In this document: piece by piece, positions 3,479 through 48,604 of the stretch | Position numbering within the stretch: position 1 is the first letter of the stretch | Layout: the number at the start of each line of letters is the position of its first letter | IMG/VR virus record: IMGVR_UViG_3300033571_011171 | Coordinates: 1-49,740 of that record | Strand: one strand, 5' to 3' | From: a virus | Length of the DNA stretch: 49,740 bases | The notes under the pieces: model-generated | What the model was told of the DNA's origin: nothing | What the model saw: the letters and a program-made list of their open reading frames with translations, nothing else | Databases searched by the model: none | Made by a program: the position numbers and the translations under genes

Positions 3479-3684
3479 TGGAGGAGCGTAAGTTCCTAAC
3501 CCCACGGGAGGTTGCGTCGCGTTACAATGGTCAAATCACCCACCGAACTTTAGCGAATTGGCGATCGTCAGGTGTCAGCCCTCCGTTCTGCAAAATTGGT
3601 GGGCGTATCTTGTACCCGCTCGATGAGCTAATCTTATGGGAGCAGCGCAGGACGGTGAAAGCCACGAACCAGTACAGTAAGTGA
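3478..3684 (+). CDS. Small MerR/AlpA-like HTH protein, possible excisionase
   Basis: 68 residues with the pattern of the helix_turn_helix_17/AlpA-excisionase group: FLTPREVASRYN, then RTLANWRSSG, then PPFCKIGGRILYP and a final helix. Such proteins bend DNA at attachment sites or regulate integrases. It directly precedes a terminator and the integrase gene, which supports an excisionase (recombination directionality factor) role, but a plain transcription factor is also possible. Its start overlaps the previous stop by one base, so translation is probably coupled. Confidence 0.72.
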   Translation: MEERKFLTPREVASRYNGQITHRTLANWRSSGVSPPFCKIGGRILYPLDELILWEQRRTVKATNQYSK

Positions 3685-3709
3685 GTTTCCGCCTGATACA
3701 GGCAGCAGA

Positions 3710-3749
3710 AACGGGCAGCACCTCAACAGGTCTGCCCGTTTTTCTTTTT
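3710..3749 (+). terminator. Rho-independent terminator after the HTH gene
   Basis: AACGGGCAG at 3710-3718 pairs with CTGCCCGTT at 3732-3740 across a 13-base loop and is followed by a T-rich run (TTTCTTTTTA). It ends the recombination transcript, so the integrase 184 bp further on probably has its own promoter or depends on read-through. The 248 bp between 3685 and 3932 hold nothing else that I can support. Confidence 0.8.
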
Positions 3750-3932
3750 AGTTTCAGATACATACCGCCAGCGATTGACTTATTCACAAGCACCATTCAT
3801 AGTCCTGCCTGTTCACGGTGGTGCACGGGCAGTCCATTGAATTCATTGCAGGATTCTCGGATTCATCCGTCGCCACTCCTAACCTGCTGGAACGGGAAGC
3901 AATCCCCAAACAGCGAGCAAACAGGTGGCAAA

Positions 3933-5069
3933 ATGAAGCTCACAGATGCTGCAATTCGCAGGGCGGTGGAGATCGGGAAACCCGTCACGCTCACCGACGG
4001 CTCAGGAAAAGGCACTGGACGGCTGGTGCTGATCATTCGGAAGAACCCTGAGTGGTACGTCCGTGTCCAGCGCAACGGGAAACGCCAGTCCGTCAAGATC
4101 GGAACATACCCTGCCATGTCGCTGAATCAGGCGCGTGAGCGGTTCGCGGACTATCGTGAGGGTATCACCATAGGCAAGCCCGTTCGAGCGGCTGTAACCG
4201 TCCCGATTGGCACGGTGGAGGACCTATTCGCGGGGTATCTCGAAACGCTCGAGGGGAGAGCATCATACGACGATGGGAAAGCCTGCCTCGATCGGCTCGC
4301 TGATCAGCTGGGAAAACACCGTCCAGCGAACACGATCACCACGGACGACATCGTGGCGTTCCTGCGCCCTGTGTACCACCGCGGCAAGGTTCGCATGGCT
4401 GACAAATATCGGGCGTTCGTCCGCGCGGCTTACGGTTGGGGAATGGCTGCTGAGGCTGACTATCGCAGCTCCGTGGCTGCGCGGTTCAAGATCGCGGTGA
4501 ATCCTGCCGCTGCGATTCCAGCAGAGGGTGTGTCGGTAGGAACGCGGCATCTGAGTGTCGCGGAGTTCAGGCAGCTGTGGTGGTCGCTCAGAGGCACAAC
4601 GACAAACCGCGCGATCGGGCAGATCATGTTCAGCGGATTGCGCCCCAGCGAGGTGGTTTCGATTCACAGCTCGATGATCTCCGACGGGATGATCACGTGG
4701 GGCGACACGAAGAACGGGAAGCCTCACACGCTGCCGTGGTGGGGCGGTGAGTTCGACGGGTATCTGTTCCCTGCGGATTTCAACGCTGACAGGCACGTGA
4801 ACGTCGAAACGGTGTACTCGGTGCTGTGGCGCTACTGCTCACGGATGAAGATCGAGCCGTTCAATCTGCGCGACCTTCGCAGGACCTGGAAGACACTGGC
4901 AGGTGAGGCTGGAATATCGAAGGAGCTCAGGGATATTTGGCAGAACCACGCGCGGTCGGATGTGTCGAGCGTGCACTACGATCGGTATCAGTACCTGCCT
5001 GAGAAGCGGGAGGTGTTGAGGTTGTGGTCTGAGTGGTGGGAGAAACGCATCGGGCTGACCAGTATATAA
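3933..5069 (+). CDS. int: P4-type tyrosine integrase
   Basis: Site-specific recombinase that integrates the phage at the bacterial attachment site. I start it at the ATG at 3933 (378 aa); an open frame extends upstream to 3681 but reads through a terminator and has no integrase-like content. Residues 1-90 match the arm-binding DUF4102-type domain (WYVRVQRNGKRQSVKIGTYP, then a LNQARERF helix). Catalytic positions visible are Arg237 (SGLRPSE), Arg316 (RDLRRTWKT), His339 (QNHA) and Tyr349 (HYDRY). The usual first histidine of box II (HxxR) is Arg313 here, as in some relatives of this branch. It ends next to a tRNA gene, the expected attachment target. Confidence 0.93.
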   Translation: MKLTDAAIRRAVEIGKPVTLTDGSGKGTGRLVLIIRKNPEWYVRVQRNGKRQSVKIGTYPAMSLNQARERFADYREGITIGKPVRAAVTVPIGTVEDLFAGYLETLEGRASYDDGKACLDRLADQLGKHRPANTITTDDIVAFLRPVYHRGKVRMADKYRAFVRAAYGWGMAAEADYRSSVAARFKIAVNPAAAIPAEGVSVGTRHLSVAEFRQLWWSLRGTTTNRAIGQIMFSGLRPSEVVSIHSSMISDGMITWGDTKNGKPHTLPWWGGEFDGYLFPADFNADRHVNVETVYSVLWRYCSRMKIEPFNLRDLRRTWKTLAGEAGISKELRDIWQNHARSDVSSVHYDRYQYLPEKREVLRLWSEWWEKRIGLTSI

Positions 5070-5170: not shown

Positions 5171-5188
5171 TCCTTTGGTCGGATTTTG

Positions 5189-5261
5189 TTGCGGAAACAG
5201 GACTCGAACCTGCGACCTGTGGATTATGAGTCCACCGAGCTACCAACTGCTCTATTCCGCA
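5189..5261 (-). tRNA. tRNA with CAU anticodon (tRNA-Met, or Ile2 if lysidine-modified)
   Basis: On the minus strand the 73-nt sequence folds as a full cloverleaf. The acceptor stem is TGCGGAA/TTCCGCA, the D arm contains GAGCAGTTGGTAGCTC, the anticodon stem is GTGGA/TCCAC with loop CTCATAA (anticodon CAU), and the T loop is TTCGAGT. CCA is not encoded. Its place beside the integrase suggests that it carries the attP core, so that it would rebuild a host tRNA gene on integration. It starts 16 bases after the stop of the neighbouring late gene and may be cut from that transcript. Confidence 0.92.
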
Positions 5262-29686: not shown

Positions 29687-31534
29687 TTACTTCCAAAAAC
29701 TCGATTTTCGTCGCTCAATCACAGGTTCTGCTGTTTCCTTCCCGTAACTGGCATCGATCATCGCCCAGGTTTCTTCTGTCCAGCGATCAACTCCGATGTA
29801 AGCAGCTCCTGCCATCGCATACACACGGGTATCGAGTGGCTCGTTTCGCTCGAACGTCTTTTCCCACTGGTGCTTCACGTACCCCTTTTTGTCCTTCACA
29901 GCGATCAGCCGTTCCGCTGTCAGCCCCTTGAAGTAGTTCGAATCTCGCTTCGGGAACCAGCAGTACCCGTCAGGAAATGTGCCGTCCTCGAGCACCGTTT
30001 GTTTCAGGTACCCGTACAACCGCTGCTTGAACACACCGATGCCGATATTCAGCAATCGAACACGCCCAGTCTTTCTTCCATCCATCCGCACGTCCACGGT
30101 GCTTGGAGGAGTAAACGGGATTTGCAGTGATTCCTGCCCTTTGATCGCGATCACCCGCGAAGGGTCGAACCGACGGCAAAACTCATAGGCGTAGTGCGTG
30201 TTGTAACCCGTATCGACGCAGGTGATCTTGATCGGCAACTGAGCTCCATCGGCTCGAACGAATTGCTCGTTCACAACCGCTGCCAGCCTGTTCCACGTTT
30301 CCAGCTTCGTGGTGTCGCCCAAGATCACACGGTAGTCCACCGAGTGGGTTTGCATACCGCGGCACCAGCCAACGATCTCGAGCTCGAGGCGGTCTTTCTG
30401 AACGTCAACCCCGCAGCTGAGGAACACCACTTCGCGCGGCACCGTCTTGTCCGGTACGTCGATCGCGCGCTCCATGATCCGTTCCCATTCAGGAACGTCA
30501 CCGTCCTCCTCATAGGTCATTCCCAGCACGGTGTTGAAAAACGATTTCAGTTTCTCAGGCTTGCCCTGTGCCTCCTCCCAGTCCCGTACAGCCTCCTGCC
30601 AGCTGTACCAACCAACAGGCGAGTACAGCGCGGAAACGTGGAATCCGATCTTTCGAGGCGAGGCATTCTCAGGCTTGTCGGGTACGAAGTGCCCAGCAGC
30701 GAGCATGTCCGTTTTGTGCAGCTCCTCGATGATCGGCTCAGCACACGAATTGCATTCGTAGTACACCGTTTCGGGCTTACCTGCCTCCCAGCGGAACTGC
30801 TCGAACTCGAGCTTCTGATAGGTGCCGCAGTGTGGGCACGGCACGTGGTAATAGTTCTGATCGGTTTCCAGAAATGCGGCTTCAACAGCCGATTGACCTT
30901 TCACCAACGGTGTCGATGGGATGTAAATCTTTCGACGTGGGAACGTCGCGGTACGCTTTTCAGCCAGCTTGATCGGGTCCCCTTCCCCGTCCAGGTCAGC
31001 AGGATATGCATCAGCCTCGTCGAGCATCAGGCAGCGAACAGGAATCGAACGAAGTCCAGCCGCGGAGTTCGCGCCCGTAGCCATCAAAACCCCACCGGGA
31101 AACATCTTCATTTTCGCGGTGTTTTTGCTGTCCTTCGATCGGGTTTTCCCAATCTTCTCAATCAACCGCGGTGTGTTCTCGATCATCGGGTCGATGCGGA
31201 TTGCGACGTTACGTTTCAACGTGTCGTCCGTCGGCATCACCATCAGGATCGGGCACGGCACCAGGTCCATCAGGTACCCAATCCAGTTGTTGCCGATCTC
31301 CGTTGCACCGATCTGAGCGCATTTCATGAAAATAATCACTTGGCACGGGTCGCCAACTGACAATTTATCCATGATCGTGCGCAAATATGGGGTTCTCGAA
31401 ACCCTGTACAGCCCAGGTTCAGAGGCTGCTTGCGAGGTCAAATACCTGTATTTCTCTGCCCATTCGGTTACTGTGAACCGTGGTTCAGGGCGTAAACCCT
31501 CCAAAAATGGGCGAATAATCTCGAAATTCGTCAT
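29687..31534 (-). CDS. terL: Terminase large subunit (lambda gpA type)
   Basis: 615-residue packaging ATPase and nuclease. Walker A-like KCAQIGATE at 71-79, Walker B CLMLDEAD at 168-175, and a C-terminal RNase H-like nuclease beginning at SCGVDVQKDRLELEIVGW, with Asp in CVDTGYNT. A CPHC/CNSC zinc-binding pair lies at about 237-267. GpA-type enzymes usually cut at cos sites, so cohesive ends are expected by family. Overlaps the small subunit by ATGA. Confidence 0.95.
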   Translation of the reverse strand: MTNFEIIRPFLEGLRPEPRFTVTEWAEKYRYLTSQAASEPGLYRVSRTPYLRTIMDKLSVGDPCQVIIFMKCAQIGATEIGNNWIGYLMDLVPCPILMVMPTDDTLKRNVAIRIDPMIENTPRLIEKIGKTRSKDSKNTAKMKMFPGGVLMATGANSAAGLRSIPVRCLMLDEADAYPADLDGEGDPIKLAEKRTATFPRRKIYIPSTPLVKGQSAVEAAFLETDQNYYHVPCPHCGTYQKLEFEQFRWEAGKPETVYYECNSCAEPIIEELHKTDMLAAGHFVPDKPENASPRKIGFHVSALYSPVGWYSWQEAVRDWEEAQGKPEKLKSFFNTVLGMTYEEDGDVPEWERIMERAIDVPDKTVPREVVFLSCGVDVQKDRLELEIVGWCRGMQTHSVDYRVILGDTTKLETWNRLAAVVNEQFVRADGAQLPIKITCVDTGYNTHYAYEFCRRFDPSRVIAIKGQESLQIPFTPPSTVDVRMDGRKTGRVRLLNIGIGVFKQRLYGYLKQTVLEDGTFPDGYCWFPKRDSNYFKGLTAERLIAVKDKKGYVKHQWEKTFERNEPLDTRVYAMAGAAYIGVDRWTEETWAMIDASYGKETAEPVIERRKSSFWK

Positions 31535-32109
31535 AAATCACGGGAAATTACCTGTGTAATCTTCTCCAACGCAGAAGCTATCGCTTCCTCGAGGTAAATC
31601 TGCTGCTGGTTTCGATCGCTGATTCCGCGCAGCCTGTCGATGTGCCGCGCTGGAATTCCCATCAGTTCTTTGCGGATTTCCTGTCCCATCTCATACAGCG
31701 AGTTGGATATGTCGGATTTCTTCACCACCTGTCCCTGCTGCTCTTGCAGTTTCAGGTGGAGCAACTTCGCCTTGATCGCGGATTCGGCTTGCTTGTGCTT
31801 CGATATCGAGGCGCGTGCCTCTACGTCGGGACTATCTGTCCCTTCGCTCGCTGGCGCGGTGGGCGCGGATGGCGTTTGTGCAGGCTGGCTCTGCAGCTTC
31901 TCAGCCAGCACAGGATTGTTGTGGGCGTAGTTCGGATTGTGGTTTTGCGACCACTCCCGATCTGCCACATCAGGGTTGATCCATGGTCTGCCTTTGGCAT
32001 CCTTCACCAGCCCGTGAATAATCTTCCCAGCTCTGATTGCTTTTCGAACTGCTCCTTCTGAGCAGCCGCGCCTTTCAGCATATTGTCGTTGCGATAAATG
32101 TCCTTCCAT
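31531..32109 (-). CDS. terS: Terminase small subunit (Nu1-like)
   Basis: 192 residues. The N-terminal winged HTH (SQRQYAERRGCSEGAVRKAI, then GKIIHGLV) recognises packaging DNA. A Pro/Ala/Ser linker (70-95) leads to a C-terminal helical region (KAKLLHLKLQEQQGQVVKKS) that binds the large subunit, as in lambda gpNu1 relatives. It follows the IbrB-like gene by 7 bp. Confidence 0.85.
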   Translation of the reverse strand: MEGHLSQRQYAERRGCSEGAVRKAIRAGKIIHGLVKDAKGRPWINPDVADREWSQNHNPNYAHNNPVLAEKLQSQPAQTPSAPTAPASEGTDSPDVEARASISKHKQAESAIKAKLLHLKLQEQQGQVVKKSDISNSLYEMGQEIRKELMGIPARHIDRLRGISDRNQQQIYLEEAIASALEKITQVISRDL

Positions 32110-32116
32110 ACTTCAT

Positions 32117-32599
32117 TCAATCAGGCACCCATGCCTTACTCCATTCAGCGTTTGTAACTATTCGTGTCTTCGGAATTCCCTTCCGATTCGACAATCTCAC
32201 CACTTCTTCGGGTTCCATCCCCAATCGCTTGCAGATGTCTTCCAGTGGCATTCCCGATTCAACCATTCCACCGACGATCTCAGCCATTTTCAGCACAGCG
32301 TGCGTGCCTCGAGCTCGGTTGTGTCGGATGGTGGACATCTGCCTGTCGTGCCGCGACTTGCGCGCCAGCACCACCACGGGAACGTCCGAACTGTCCAAGT
32401 CGGCAGAAACCGTCCAGCGGTGAAATCCATCGACGATCGTGCCGTCAGGGTTCACCACAATCGGCTGTGTCCAGCCATCTTCTACGATGGAGAGCCGCAG
32501 CAGTTTCAGTTCAGGTGGAGCAACTGCATTGGGGTTGTAGTCGTTGGGTTTGAGCGTGTCGCGCGGTACCCACAGCACGCGGTCGATCGGATTTCTCAT
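32117..32599 (-). CDS. ibrB: IbrB-like ParB/Srx-domain protein
   Basis: 160 residues. The fold is ParB-N/sulfiredoxin-like: PNDYNPNAVAPPELKLLRLS, DGWTQPIVVN, then IVDGFHRW (the GxxR-type nucleotide pocket) and STIRHNRARGTH. This set is characteristic of IbrB, partner of IbrA in enterobacterial prophages. ParB-like folds can bind CTP or act as nucleases. The start overlaps the IbrA-like gene by ATGA, and the terminase follows directly, so it is co-expressed with DNA packaging. The biochemical role of IbrB is not established. Confidence 0.85.
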   Translation of the reverse strand: MRNPIDRVLWVPRDTLKPNDYNPNAVAPPELKLLRLSIVEDGWTQPIVVNPDGTIVDGFHRWTVSADLDSSDVPVVVLARKSRHDRQMSTIRHNRARGTHAVLKMAEIVGGMVESGMPLEDICKRLGMEPEEVVRLSNRKGIPKTRIVTNAEWSKAWVPD

Positions 32600-33774
32600 G
32601 CTCGCTTGCCGTGTTTTTCGATCACCTGATCGAGAGTTAGTCCCAGTTTCTTCATCACCTTGTCGCCTTCACCGACCATGTTCTGCTTCTGCCTGCCCTT
32701 GAAATCTCCCTTCACGGCAATCTTCGCGAAGAACTTCCAGCTCGCACCCGTGAGGATATGCGGCTGTTCATCCTCGATCGGCTCGTCGGTTTTCTCGTAA
32801 TGGTGGGAAATCAGACCGTTGATCGATTGCCGAATTTGATTCCGGTACTCAATCTCCGAGTAAGTTTCGATCACCATCTCCGTGTACTGCTTCCAGGTCA
32901 CACCGTCGGGTTTCTTCCAGTTGGAATACAGCTCGGTGTTCGCATACCGCCACGCGGTACCAACGCCCTTCACCCGTCCGATCATCTTGTGCCAAAGTTC
33001 TGGCCAGCATTCGGCATACACCCACAATCCGCGCAGTGGTTCTTCTCCATACGGAGGGCACACGCGCTGAGTGAGTAGCTTTCCGTGCAGCGAGGTGTGG
33101 TTGAACACGTCGTAAGTGCGGTTGTAATCCAGCCCTTTCACCTCAACGAGTTTCCAAACATCCTCACTGGACCAGTCGTAAATCGGATGCGCCCGATACG
33201 AATTACCGAAGTCAGCCGAACTGGTGATGTACGCGTCGTTCTTCTTCTGCGCGATCACGCGGTACCGCCTCAATGATTCCTGAGTGCGAATGCCAGTGAC
33301 CACCACCACCGAACCCATGTCGTTCGGGAAAATCTTCGGCATCCATTCAGCGAATGAATCTCCGAAATTGAACAGCGGGTGTTCGGTAATTCCCCACGGT
33401 GGGAGCTCCCGACACCACAGGTGGCGTTCGGCAGGATTCCAGCAATACCACCACGGCTGTTCGTTCGAGCACGCGTTGCGGTGTTTCACTGGCAGGCAGT
33501 ACCAGTCCAGCTTCACGTCCGATCGCTGCCTGATGCGCTCCACGTACTCCACAGTCGGAGGGTGGATTGCTTCTTCGTCCACGAAGATCGCCCACACAGG
33601 TAACCTGCCCAGGCGCGTAGCCACCTCAACGGTGAGGTTCAGAACCGCGGTGGAATCCTTCCCGCCTGAGAAGGAAACCACCACATGGTCGAACCGCTGG
33701 TACAGGTACTCAATCCGCTCGATCGCGGCTTCGTACACGTTCTGATCTGTGTATTTTTTGTGCCGTGCCTTCAT
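32596..33774 (-). CDS. ibrA: IbrA-like PAPS-reductase/PP-loop ATPase (DUF3440 family)
   Basis: 392 residues. The PP-loop motif SFSGGKDST at 34-42 binds ATP and activates a substrate as an adenylate, as in PAPS reductase, DndC and tRNA thiolases. Other family marks are FVDEEAIHPPTVEYVERI, VVTGIRTQESLRRYR, HPIYDWSSEDVW and the Cys-containing CPPYGEEPLRGLW. IbrA/DUF3440 proteins form a family next to DndC. Tight overlaps with cupin and IbrB (4 bp each) show that they work together. A sulfur-transfer or other nucleic-acid modifying role is inferred from fold, not shown. Confidence 0.9.
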   Translation of the reverse strand: MKARHKKYTDQNVYEAAIERIEYLYQRFDHVVVSFSGGKDSTAVLNLTVEVATRLGRLPVWAIFVDEEAIHPPTVEYVERIRQRSDVKLDWYCLPVKHRNACSNEQPWWYCWNPAERHLWCRELPPWGITEHPLFNFGDSFAEWMPKIFPNDMGSVVVVTGIRTQESLRRYRVIAQKKNDAYITSSADFGNSYRAHPIYDWSSEDVWKLVEVKGLDYNRTYDVFNHTSLHGKLLTQRVCPPYGEEPLRGLWVYAECWPELWHKMIGRVKGVGTAWRYANTELYSNWKKPDGVTWKQYTEMVIETYSEIEYRNQIRQSINGLISHHYEKTDEPIEDEQPHILTGASWKFFAKIAVKGDFKGRQKQNMVGEGDKVMKKLGLTLDQVIEKHGKRA

Positions 33775-34451
33775 GCTGCTATCAGTTTGGTCGCGGCTTT
33801 CATCTGGTGCACTTCGTCCGTTGGTCCGACTTCTGAATCGGGATGAAATGCGATCACGCGCATCTCATCCTCGTCCGTCACGAACCCATGCGAACCCACT
33901 GGCCAATCACTGCCCGGTACCGTTTCGCCCGTCGCCTTGTGGATGATGAAAACGTCGCCTTCGTTCATCAGGTGAACGCCCTGCGGGGTGATGCACTTAC
34001 CCGTCCCATGCGCCACCATCCCAATTCGAACCGACGGGTGAGTGTGCGGGGTTTGGATTACCCCATCAGGGAAATGCAGGTAATTCAGGCACGGGTCGCC
34101 CTTCTTCACGGGCGGAATCAGCAGGCTGTCCGTGCACCCGTCGATGTACCTGAGCCGCCCAGCGCGTTCGATCGGACCACCGACCATGAACATGCCGCGG
34201 TAATTTCGAACCTGGATGATCAGCGCCACCGTGTCCGTTTCAGCCAAGATCGGACCATCAGTCACGCAGGCATACTGACCAGCTCCGAGGATGTACCTCG
34301 AGTTCACCCACACCAGCCCACGGTGAACGTACACGAACCTCGTACCCTCAGCAGGAGCAAGTCCCACCCGACGGTCGATGCCGTGAACCTCAACACCGTC
34401 GATGGTGATGATGTGCCCAGTTCTCATTTTCAGGATTTCGAAGCTGTCCAT
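33771..34451 (-). CDS. Bicupin-like protein in the IbrAB cassette
   Basis: 226 residues. I start at the ATG at 34451 because GAGGAG lies 5 bases upstream, one of very few Shine-Dalgarno-like sequences here; a GTG at 34463 is the alternative. Two beta-rich halves resemble tandem jelly rolls. The second has the cupin metal pattern (QTPHTHPSVRIGMVAHGTGK, His136 and His138; later a GSHGFVTDEDE segment, His188). Cupins include Fe(II) oxygenases and isomerases. In this context it may act on a small molecule or on a nucleotide used by the IbrA-like ATPase. No substrate can be named. Confidence 0.8.
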   Translation of the reverse strand: MDSFEILKMRTGHIITIDGVEVHGIDRRVGLAPAEGTRFVYVHRGLVWVNSRYILGAGQYACVTDGPILAETDTVALIIQVRNYRGMFMVGGPIERAGRLRYIDGCTDSLLIPPVKKGDPCLNYLHFPDGVIQTPHTHPSVRIGMVAHGTGKCITPQGVHLMNEGDVFIIHKATGETVPGSDWPVGSHGFVTDEDEMRVIAFHPDSEVGPTDEVHQMKAATKLIAA

Positions 34452-34459
34452 GTTTCTCC

Positions 34460-35170
34460 TCACTCGAACTGACGCACCATGTGCATCAGAGCCTCAGATG
34501 CTTTTTGGTAGTTGTGCTGCTGCCTGAGCCTGTCGAGCAGCTTCACCAGGCGCACCTTCTCGGAGTGCAGCATCACGCAGTCGAAAACTGAGTGCTGATC
34601 GTCCGTCGCCTTCGGTGCCTTCACCTCAACGAGATCACCCGTGGCTTGCTCAGGTTCTTTGCGCAGCTGCTCACCTTCGGTGCGCTGAACAGGTGCATGT
34701 GCTTTCGTAGGTGCTTCCTGTCGCGTGGCTTCCGACACGCGGAATTCCACATCGGGCAGGAAGTCCTCACCCAGCAGTGCCGCGATCTCGTCGTCATTCA
34801 ATCCGGTGAGTTCAGTGTCGAACCCAGCCTGGACCAGCTTGCTGACCTCATCGCTGAGAATCTCGAGATCGTAGGTGGATTTTCGAGCGATCTTGTTGTC
34901 AGCAATCCTTAACGCTGCAATCTGATCTTCCGTCAGATCAGAAACATAGATCACAGGGACGGATTCCATCCCCAGCATCTTCGCTGCAAGTAGTCGCCCG
35001 TGTCCTGCGATGATCACTCCGTTGATGTCCGCGATGATCGGCTGTCTGAAGCCGAACGCCTTGATCGCATTAGCCAGCTCCCGAACTTGGCTATCGGGAT
35101 GGATCATTGGATTACCTGTGTACGGCTCGAGCCTGCCCACGGGTACCAGTTCGATGTGTGGTGTATTCAT
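34460..35170 (-). CDS. ParB-like nuclease-domain protein
   Basis: 236 residues. ParB-N domain at 5-100: LEPYTGNPMIHPDSQVRELA, GFRQPIIADINGVIIAGHGR, LTEDQIAALRIADNK and the acidic LNDDEIAALLGEDF. This subtype is common beside phage terminases and DNA methylases. The C-terminal half is charged with Glu/Lys-rich linker and a terminal helix. It is the second ParB-like protein of the cassette, but unlike IbrB in sequence. It is first in the operon behind the 35.2 kb control region. Confidence 0.88.
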   Translation of the reverse strand: MNTPHIELVPVGRLEPYTGNPMIHPDSQVRELANAIKAFGFRQPIIADINGVIIAGHGRLLAAKMLGMESVPVIYVSDLTEDQIAALRIADNKIARKSTYDLEILSDEVSKLVQAGFDTELTGLNDDEIAALLGEDFLPDVEFRVSEATRQEAPTKAHAPVQRTEGEQLRKEPEQATGDLVEVKAPKATDDQHSVFDCVMLHSEKVRLVKLLDRLRQQHNYQKASEALMHMVRQFE

Positions 35171-36286: not shown

Positions 36287-36899
36287 GATGCTAAGGTACG
36301 GGAAAACAGGGTTATTCGTTGCGATATTCCGTGAATCCCAGTATTGGCGCTGGTAACAAATTTTGTGACATATAAGTAGCTGATTTCGTTGGATTTCTGA
36401 AATCGTGTTACCACGTTGTGACATCGATGTTACCGAGCAATATCAAGGGCTTAGGATATATTTATATATATAATGTCACAAAATAATATATATATACATA
36501 CACGCATACACATACGCATACACAGGCATAGTGATACACTTGTGGGAGCGTTACTTTTGTTACCGCGTGTTTGGTTTGGCAATTTTTCTCAGCATTATCA
36601 ACGGTTTGCGTGGTAACAGACCGTGGTAACAAATGGTAACAAACGGGCACAAAATGGGGTTTTTGCCTGTTTTATGGTCACTCATGCAGGAAAAAGCCGC
36701 CCCAAAGTGTCACAAGGTGGCACAACTTGGCACACATTTGACACGACAGTTACGTAAAATGCCGCGCACATGTGTGCCAGTTGTGGCACAAAGTGTGTCA
36801 GACCTGGTACAAATTGAGGCAATAATGCCTCAGATTGTCACAAGTATTACCTTGGTTGACACAAATATGTTCGTATATTTGCGCACACAATGACACAAA
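36287..36899. repeat. 613-bp repeat-dense, AT-rich intergenic region (origin or master control candidate)
   Basis: Left part (36350-36645): at least seven copies of GGTAAC or its complement (36353, 36407, 36429, 36559, 36612, 36625, 36635). Middle (36454-36495): an almost pure A/T run, followed by (CATACA)n-like sequence. Right part (36717-36912): about ten copies of TGKCACAA-like words (GTGTCACAAG, GTGGCACAAC, TTGGCACAC, TTGACACG, GTGGCACAAA, TTGTCACAAG, TTGACACAAA, ATGACACAAA). A perfect 7-bp inverted repeat TGAGGCA/TGCCTCA is at 36815-36832. Iterons beside an AT-rich unwinding element are typical of origins; the adjacent RHH protein could bind the words. No gene is supported inside. Confidence 0.7.
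36851..36881 (+). promoter_or_regulatory. Promoter of the RHH gene
   Basis: CTTG (36851-36854), 19-bp spacer and TATATTTG (36874-36881), one mismatch from consensus. It is embedded in TGNCACAA repeats, so the gene product may regulate itself. TGTTCGTATATTTG is similar to the conserved sequence of the main promoters. Confidence 0.7.
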
Positions 36900-37211: not shown

Positions 37212-38195
37212 ATGTCAGCGACGACAAAACAAATTACGCGGGCGATCAAGGCGATCGCACCGTATGAAGTAAAGTTCACAGGCACCGAACTGATCGTGCC
37301 AGGCGATGTGAGCATAATTATCCCATTCAAAACTGAGGCTGAATTTGCTTCGAATGCCGTTCAGGTGTGCGATGCACTGGATGCGTTTGGAGTGAATTTC
37401 ATTCCCACAGTCAATGGTGAGAACGTTGAATTGCGATCAGGCAACCGTAAGATCAAAATGAAGGTATCGCCGTTCGATTATCACCGCGAGGATGATTTAA
37501 TTGAACCTGTCACCGTTGGTGTTCTCGATGAAATGGATGTGCACCGTATTTTGATTGCGAAGCGGTACACCAGTACTGACAAATACAGGGAGGCTATCCG
37601 CTGCGTTTACATCCATGAAGGAAATATCGTTTCCACAGATTCTAAGCGGATGTATTTTACTAAGGCATCGTTTGAAACATCGGAAGAACTGCTGCTTCGC
37701 GAAGATACTATGAAGCTGCTGGATTGTTTCGCAGGGAACTGGACGGTTCAGCAAGATGGAGGTTTCGTTCACCTAAGATCGGACGATGGAATTTTGATCA
37801 TTCAGGAAAAACAGAGCGAGCGTTTTGTGAACTGGAAGGCAGTGATTCCAAAGGAGAATCCGATCGAAATATCGTTTGTGAATAAGGAGCTCCGCGAGGC
37901 TTTGAAACAGGGCGGCAAGTTCGCTGGGTACACCGACACGGTAGTAATGGAATGCACCGATCAGGGCGTGAAACTGATTTTCGAGGATTTGGATTTAGAG
38001 CGCGATTATAGCGTTGATCTGAATTTTGCAGCAAGAATCAAAGGCGATGATATTCGCATAGGTTTCAACTGGAAATTACTATCGCAGATTATTTCCGATT
38101 GCCCTGATGCTTTTGTGATGAAACTCAGTGCTTCAAACCGATCAGCAGTGATCGACGATCAGTTCCTGCTGTTTCCTGTACTATTAAAAGACTAA
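37212..38195 (+). CDS. DNA polymerase III beta (sliding clamp)-like protein
   Basis: 327 residues, somewhat shorter than bacterial DnaN (about 366-375). A domain pattern of repeated beta-alpha units is visible; IRCVYIHEGNIVSTDSKRMY matches the clamp's central strand with a TDSKR turn, IEISFVNKELREALKQGGKF the third-domain start, and MKLSASNRSAVIDDQFLLFP the family's C-terminal signature. The phage carries no DNA polymerase, so this clamp probably loads on viral DNA for the host polymerase or recruits viral enzymes with clamp-binding tails. First gene of a rightward operon. A good but not certain assignment. Confidence 0.75.
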   Translation: MSATTKQITRAIKAIAPYEVKFTGTELIVPGDVSIIIPFKTEAEFASNAVQVCDALDAFGVNFIPTVNGENVELRSGNRKIKMKVSPFDYHREDDLIEPVTVGVLDEMDVHRILIAKRYTSTDKYREAIRCVYIHEGNIVSTDSKRMYFTKASFETSEELLLREDTMKLLDCFAGNWTVQQDGGFVHLRSDDGILIIQEKQSERFVNWKAVIPKENPIEISFVNKELREALKQGGKFAGYTDTVVMECTDQGVKLIFEDLDLERDYSVDLNFAARIKGDDIRIGFNWKLLSQIISDCPDAFVMKLSASNRSAVIDDQFLLFPVLLKD

Positions 38196-47833: not shown

Positions 47834-48604
47834 TCAGAATATTGACAGCTGCACTCCTGCTGCTGGTTGGTTAGGAATGATTTGCGGTGTAGGTTTCGCC
47901 TCAGCTGGTGTAGGATTCTCCACCTGCTCAGCGTGTTTCAATCGCATCTGCTCGAGCGACTGCCACGTGAACGATTGCTCTTTCGGTACCTCGAAACAGC
48001 ACAGGGTGTCAGTTTGCCACACTCGGAACAGCTCACCTGAGAGCGTGTTCATGTGGCAAATCTGACCTCTCACCCCGTGAAGGCAAAAGTTAACGACTGC
48101 CATGCGAGCGCACAGCGGGTCCAAGTCTTCTCCGAAAAAGTAATTGCCAGGGCGCAACGCGTGTCCTGCCAGCAGGGTACGTCCTGAACCACAGGCAGGG
48201 TCGTTCACCCGTTTGCCCTTCATCCCTTCCGGTATGTTCATCGTTGCGATCATGTCGCAAACAGCAGCAGGGGTGAAAAACTGCCCGAAGCTGGATTTCT
48301 TCGAGCTCGACGAAACCACCTCGTAAATTGTCCCCAGCACGTCGAACCAGCTGGTGTCGTCGGTGATCTCGCGCTCCATGGTCAGTGCCATTTCGCGGAA
48401 CATCAGCGGGAACACCTCGTACTCTGAGCCGTAGGTTTCCTGTAACTTATCCAGCCATGGGCGGTCTTTGTTGAGGTTGAAACACTCGATGCAGTATTGA
48501 ACGAAGTCAGAAAATACGGTGTAGGAATCCCATCTGTAATTCGCTACCCGATTAAATACCTTGATAAACTCCCGCAGGTTTGCAGGAACGTCGGTTGTTT
48601 TCAT
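47834..48604 (-). CDS. N6-adenine DNA methylase-like protein without motif IV, clamp-binding tail
   Basis: 256 residues. HsdM-type marks: SSFGQFFTPAAVCDMI (QFFTP at 108-112) and the SAM-binding motif I DPACGSG at 135-141, then GEDLDPLCARMAVVNFCLHG. The catalytic D/NPPY/F motif that should follow near 190-210 is absent; the sequence there is DTLCCFEVPKEQSF. So catalysis is doubtful and the protein may bind SAM or DNA only. It ends in GVQLSIF, a strong match to the beta-clamp binding pentapeptide. The start follows TCAGCGAC. Confidence 0.85.
   Translation of the reverse strand: MKTTDVPANLREFIKVFNRVANYRWDSYTVFSDFVQYCIECFNLNKDRPWLDKLQETYGSEYEVFPLMFREMALTMEREITDDTSWFDVLGTIYEVVSSSSKKSSFGQFFTPAAVCDMIATMNIPEGMKGKRVNDPACGSGRTLLAGHALRPGNYFFGEDLDPLCARMAVVNFCLHGVRGQICHMNTLSGELFRVWQTDTLCCFEVPKEQSFTWQSLEQMRLKHAEQVENPTPAEAKPTPQIIPNQPAAGVQLSIF

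Follow-up and report, generated by a model that had tools for sequence, protein, structure and literature searches.

The complete IMG/VR virus record IMGVR_UViG_3300033571_011171 (49,740 bases; hereafter the window) carries four linked genes directly upstream of its terminase genes, encoding the ParB-like protein ParB1, a cupin, IbrA and IbrB. The record also encodes integrase, capsid, portal and tail genes. We interpret the four genes as a predicted phage DNA-modification module, with a probability of about 0.52. The main reason is that the cassette stands where related phages carry a ParB-linked DNA methyltransferase. IbrA/IbrB pairs have been noted for more than 20 years and have mostly been described as co-activators or PAPS reductases of sulfur metabolism; the conserved cassette in this position gives them a concrete candidate job, the making of a DNA mark. 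No paper describing the cassette was found in a search that covered mainly open-access literature.

ParB1, cupin, IbrA and IbrB travel as one set

The genes lie on the minus strand and are transcribed in the order ParB1, cupin, IbrA, IbrB, TerS and TerL. Each junction among the first four is a 4-bp overlap, and TerS begins 7 bp after the end of IbrB. ParB1 (34460..35170, 236 amino acids) is a stand-alone ParB/Srx-fold protein that matched ParB_N (1e-6), phrog_620 (5e-49) and the ParB-DNA methyltransferase family phrog_498 (1e-43). The second gene, which has a GTG start, encodes a predicted bicupin metalloenzyme of 230 amino acids (33771..34463) with weak matches to AraC_binding and Cupin_2. 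IbrA (32596..33774, 392 amino acids) is a PP-loop, PAPS-reductase-like ATP pyrophosphatase with a DUF3440 domain; it carries SFSGGKDST at residues 34-42 and matched PAPS_reduct (5e-17), DUF3440 (7e-13) and phrog_2302 (6e-86). Its ParB/Srx-fold partner, IbrB (32117..32599, 160 amino acids), matched phrog_2159 (4e-63). The small terminase subunit TerS (31531..32109; phrog_57, 2e-21) and the GpA-family large subunit TerL (29687..31534; GpA_ATPase and GpA_nuclease), both also on the minus strand, lie outside the cassette and served as anchors of the slot. An earlier reading of the window (the original prediction) had described four co-directional, coupled genes ending 7 bp before TerS and had named their products IbrA, IbrB, ParB-like and cupin; the coordinates agree with this layout, as do the Pfam and PHROG matches with the names. 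By the same two databases, the window has a PAPS_reduct plus DUF3440 protein followed by its ParB-like partner, as expected of an IbrA/IbrB pair. The IbrA and IbrB profiles built in this analysis recovered both YbdN/YbdM and phage IbrA/IbrB.

The conservation of this arrangement was evaluated through the cupin. A tblastn search of INPHARED phages returned no cupin matches; relatives were found in IMG/VR and GTDB instead. A single-sequence scan of IMG/VR yielded 14 relatives, and an alignment-based scan yielded 262 IMG/VR candidates plus 68 in bacterial genomes. Full cupins were present in 76 viral loci, reduced to 53 after dropping pairs of at least 90% identity. ParB1 was upstream of the cupin in 51 of the 53 dereplicated loci (adjoining it in 48, up to three genes away in 3); the other 2 were contig ends. 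Downstream, IbrA was present in 51/53 and IbrB in 48/53. One of the two loci without a downstream IbrA, L135, ends at the contig end. In the other, L001, a deletion (1448-1592) fuses the first IbrA codons to the last 23 IbrB codons and leaves ParB1, cupin and terminase in place. In a larger set that includes many near-duplicates, cupin and IbrA were co-stranded in 129/129 viral loci and directly adjacent in 99; the cupin followed IbrA, rather than preceding it, in 5.

Distances of IbrA and IbrB were correlated (Spearman 0.69; 0/999 permutations). The correlation between cupin and IbrA was weaker (0.32; 1/999 permutations), which suggests that the cupin has been reassorted at times. Two further arrangements imply that cupin and IbrAB have met in more than one way: gp104 of mycobacteriophage Gaia (L169:5320-6219, adjoining the Gaia IbrA) naturally fuses IbrB with an ectoine-synthase-like cupin, and in L224 a third cupin type follows IbrB. 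Taken together, these data show that the four genes stay together as one set in a common orientation, in a neighbourhood that is not due to chance. The coupled cassette that had been predicted is thus strongly supported by the 53 dereplicated and 129 redundant loci, and the neighbourhood survey proposed with it found that the four families are not randomly associated. The cupin had been called an uncommon partner; in these loci it is a frequent one.

The terminase-proximal slot and a proposed role in DNA modification

Nearly all sampled cassette loci sit directly before a terminase. The cassette stands ahead of TerS-TerL from unrelated terminase families: among 45 loci, the genes after IbrB matched phrog_2 in 31, phrog_38 in 12 and phrog_15 in 3. 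For comparison, we assembled 80 viral loci whose TerL is related to the GpA TerL of the source phage and scored 75. IbrA, IbrB or this cupin was found upstream of TerL in 0/75. In these relatives, 41 of 46 ParB1-type hits were fused to or beside a gene with a D/N-PP-Y/F/W methyltransferase motif, of the DPPY/SPPY type; the same test gave 1 of 155 ParB1 hits in cassette loci, near-duplicates included. In position, the cassette therefore corresponds to the DNA methyltransferase of related phages.

ParB1 belongs, by its sequence matches, to the domain family that those phages carry in fusions with N6/N4 DNA methyltransferases. Specifically, a Pfam sample of ten ParB1-family proteins gave PF01555 in 7/7 fusion candidates, 4 of which also had ParB_N, and ParB_N alone in L248, L293 and L016. 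In L248, the closest terminase relative, the cassette is absent and a stand-alone ParB1 immediately precedes TerS. DNA methyltransferase genes also occur in or beside some cassettes (phrog_757 in L086 and L016, a DPPW gene in L237 and L238). The swap with ParB-methyltransferases supports the modification of phage DNA that was first proposed; its sulfur-based version is not supported, as set out below.

The position before TerS-TerL of unrelated families might also be explained if the cassette encoded a packaging accessory working on the complex of terminase and DNA. We consider this the most improbable of the readings: the 75 relatives with a GpA terminase do without the cassette, and L001 keeps its terminase although IbrA is lost and IbrB is reduced to its last 23 codons. 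The packaging accessory was set aside because of these GpA-terminase relatives. The earlier suggestion that the cassette acts at the time of packaging has a positional basis only. Other phages of this terminase family do without the cassette, so it is probably no component of packaging proper. In other conflict systems, ParB/Srx proteins are described as nicking DNA and hydrolysing nucleotides (PMC12839542), so the cassette could instead be a conflict or superinfection system whose ParB/Srx proteins attack competitors as nucleases or by depleting NTPs. This is highly improbable given that the source phage's cassette includes no recognised nuclease fusion or immunity partner, that its late-operon position adjoins the terminase, and that PADLOC returned weak matches only, to the PP-loop and ParB domains.

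Several observations weigh against a DNA-modification role. The slot swap spans different host lineages, with hosts unmatched, and terminase families that partly differ; near-duplicates are included in the 155 cassette ParB1 hits. The window has a separate N6 DNA methylase gene at 47834-48604 (N6_Mtase, 1e-14), so that a conventional methylase exists besides the cassette. The median observed/expected ratio of 4-base palindromes was 0.85 in cassette carriers and 0.995 in cassette-less GpA-terminase relatives (0.914 in the source phage). Carriers thus avoid palindromes more, the opposite of what broad restriction protection would give, although the comparison is confounded by differing hosts. 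Relaxed palindrome avoidance, a common but not obligatory trait of phage DNA-modification loci, was not seen in carriers, and the protection against restriction that had been suggested is not favoured by these counts. IbrA/IbrB pairs also occur elsewhere without a cupin and away from terminases, including E. coli YbdN/YbdM, and have been annotated as co-activators that act on prophage gene expression. Finally, the transporter, dehydrogenase and glycosyltransferase genes of some loci, described below, also fit small-molecule or surface metabolism.

The annotation as co-activators corresponds to a different reading, in which IbrA and IbrB activate phage late or host genes, as is reported for IbrAB and eib prophage genes in E. 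coli, perhaps in response to a small molecule that the cupin handles. Sandt, Hopper and Hill reportedly carried out experimental work on IbrAB as a transcriptional co-activator. The pair is mentioned as prophage co-activators (PMC4541368), CitR regulates ybdNM in E. coli (PMC9068703), and ParB folds bind DNA. Transcriptional co-activation nevertheless leaves unexplained both the swap with ParB-methyltransferases and the addition of amidotransferase, second PP-loop, dehydrogenase and transporter genes. Moreover, the reported regulatory effect of IbrAB could itself stem from DNA modification. On balance, we regard co-activation as unlikely.

Candidate chemistry and cassette variants

The AlphaFold2 model of IbrA had a predicted local distance difference test score (pLDDT) of 91.7, and its Foldseek matches were APS/PAPS reductases, FAD synthase, CysD, TtuA, TilS, LarE and GMP synthetase. 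Among PDB sequences, there was no close solved relative of IbrA or of the cupin. The modification had been predicted to be sulfur-based or otherwise adenylate-activated. Of the defence models, DndC was among the better-scoring for IbrA, at 56 bits in PADLOC and 42.7 bits in NCBIfam, where the cut-off is 290.4. DndC carries iron-sulfur and sulfur-transfer cysteines (PMC10853773); among 85 IbrAs, by contrast, no cysteine is invariant. The commoner cysteines were C93 (76/85), C102 (66/85), C239 (61/85) and C256 (62/85). All four are jointly missing in most loci where a class-II glutamine amidotransferase accompanies a second PP-loop protein, and several are also lost in IbrA relatives outside the 85-sequence set. 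No DndA, DndD or DndE was recognised among the named cassette genes, a scan that covered part of the neighbours and not whole hosts. A sulfur-based DNA modification akin to Dnd phosphorothioation, with IbrA replacing DndC, would agree with the DndC matches and with the retention of the four cysteines in most cassette IbrAs; it is very unlikely in view of the score far below the cut-off, the cysteine losses and the lack of recognised Dnd partners among the named cassette genes. Sulfur chemistry was set aside after the cysteine-conservation test.

The second PP-loop protein was found in 17 loci. The class-II glutamine amidotransferase occurred, along with a second PP-loop protein, in 8 loci, some of them related. 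Together with the frequent occurrence of bacterial cupins beside asparagine-synthase-like or PP-loop genes, these loci suggest that a small molecule or a nitrogen group is attached after activation by adenylation, rather than sulfur chemistry. Given the small number of amidotransferase loci, the use of nitrogen instead of sulfur is a lead. Among the 68 bacterial cupin relatives, 39 lay within 3 kb of a gene for IbrA or for an asparagine-synthase-like or PP-loop protein. Bacterial operons that pair the cupin with asparagine-synthase-like or PP-loop genes were seen in L023, L027, L030-L032, L035, L070, L075 and L079.

In family alignments, the cupin has the motif HxH(X)3R(X)6G, with HTH at residues 140-142, plus His192. 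H140 and H192 are invariant, H142 is near-invariant, and the Glu of the usual motif is replaced by the invariant R146. Based on these alignments and on an AlphaFold2 model (pLDDT 95.3), the cupin barrels bear a predicted metal-binding HxH...H set with Arg in place of the usual Glu. Foldseek matched the model to DUF861/ureidoglycine aminohydrolase, BacB, and quercetin and salicylate dioxygenases. The source-phage cupin is without the C-terminal tail that is conserved among its relatives. IbrB has invariant DGxHR and NR..G.H motifs, and its solved relatives are ParB/Spo0J/Noc.

The cassette is variable in its additional genes. A TctC solute receptor lies between ParB1 and IbrA in L204 (2756-3598) and L206, and a phage-borne SSF sodium:solute symporter does so in L231 (2308-3744) and is also present in L232. 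A 2-oxoglutarate (2OG) oxygenase was found in L231 and a short-chain dehydrogenase/reductase (SDR) in L013 and L014. Glycosyltransferase-like and GNAT-like genes were named by eye, except Glyco_transf_25 in L220. A recurrent family of 91-174 amino acids lies between or near IbrA and IbrB (L160:7814-8311; L006, L008, L009, L111-L113, L128, L130-L136, L148 and L149), with shorter forms assigned by eye in L237, L239, L244 and L247; the member tested had no match in Pfam, PHROG or NCBIfam.

These genes bear on a further alternative, that of an auxiliary cassette making or amidating a metabolite or surface sugar, unrelated to DNA. The transporters are consistent with such small-molecule metabolism, as are the Maricaulis cupin relatives, which lie near NeuB-like, sulfotransferase and related sugar genes. 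We judge it rather unlikely because two ParB/Srx proteins are near-constant members of the cassette, a terminase directly follows nearly all sampled cassettes, and ParB1 shares its ParB domain with DNA methyltransferases.

Under the DNA-modification reading, ParB1, with IbrB, would bring the enzymes to phage DNA. The cupin may prepare or tailor a small organic precursor via its metal centre. IbrA would then adenylate either the precursor or a base carbonyl using ATP, yielding AMP and pyrophosphate as TilS, GuaA and asparagine synthetase do, and the group would thereby become attached to the DNA. Where a second PP-loop protein and an amidotransferase are present, glutamine nitrogen could be used, and variants with other cupins, 2OG oxygenase, glycosyltransferases, SDR or solute transporters could change the attached group. 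The product would presumably be site-specific or sparse, not a full base replacement.

More tentatively, IbrA-IbrB could be central to a large and so far unrecognised class of DNA hypermodification systems in phages, in which interchangeable tailoring genes (several cupin families, the glutamine amidotransferase with the second PP-loop protein, transporters and glycosyltransferases) change the group, with YbdN/YbdM as a chromosomal cousin. If the DNA-modification reading is true, many environmental phages carry an additional type of DNA modification, genes now counted as sulfur auxiliary metabolic genes would be read otherwise, and there would be a pointer to the function of E. coli ybdNM.

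Other genome features and comparison with known systems

Elsewhere in the window, iteron-like repeats surround an alternating TG/CA tract running into TATATATA, just upstream of the neck gene (36340-36660). Similar regions occur in L016 (2540-2880) and L248 (3970-4260). The source-phage repeat, GTTACC, has 7 copies in approximately 290 bp and 27 in the whole 49,740 bases; the related-phage repeat, GTTTAC, has 12 clustered copies in L016 and 10 in L248. The region could be an origin, packaging or late-control element. A phage-encoded protein (37212-38195) is similar to the beta-clamp C-terminal domain of DNA polymerase III, with a match (DNA_pol3_beta_3, 1.4e-5) that falls slightly short of the cut-off. 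The integrase gene (3681-5069) adjoins a tRNA-Met gene (5188-5261), a possible attachment site.

Among known systems, DndC, SspD and BrxP of phosphorothioation share with IbrA the PP-loop, PAPS-reductase-like ATP pyrophosphatase, and DndC systems also include a ParB-superfamily protein, DndB. IbrA differs in falling far under the DndC cut-off, in its variable cysteines and in the Dnd partners not being seen among the named cassette genes. Asparagine-synthetase-like and QueC/GuaA/TilS enzymes share PP-loop adenylation and, in some cassettes, the class-II glutamine amidotransferase; however, the amidotransferase occurs in a minority of cassettes and not in that of the source phage. The E. coli ECOR-9/prophage IbrA/IbrB and K-12 YbdN/YbdM belong to these two families and lie next to each other in the order seen here, but have no neighbouring cupin or ParB1 and no terminase in the stretches read, and their reported role is prophage co-activation. 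In Dpd 7-deazaguanine modification, a ParB-like protein (DpdB) accompanies the modifying enzyme (DpdA), as proposed here; the ParB-like ATPase helps the base-modifying enzyme act on DNA (PMC12839542). Unlike Dpd, the cassette has no recognised tRNA-guanine transglycosylase-type enzyme. Phage fusions of ParB to N6/N4 DNA methyltransferases (phrog_498) have the same ParB domain in the same neighbourhood upstream of the terminase; in the cassette, the methyltransferase half is absent, and cupin, IbrA and IbrB come next instead.

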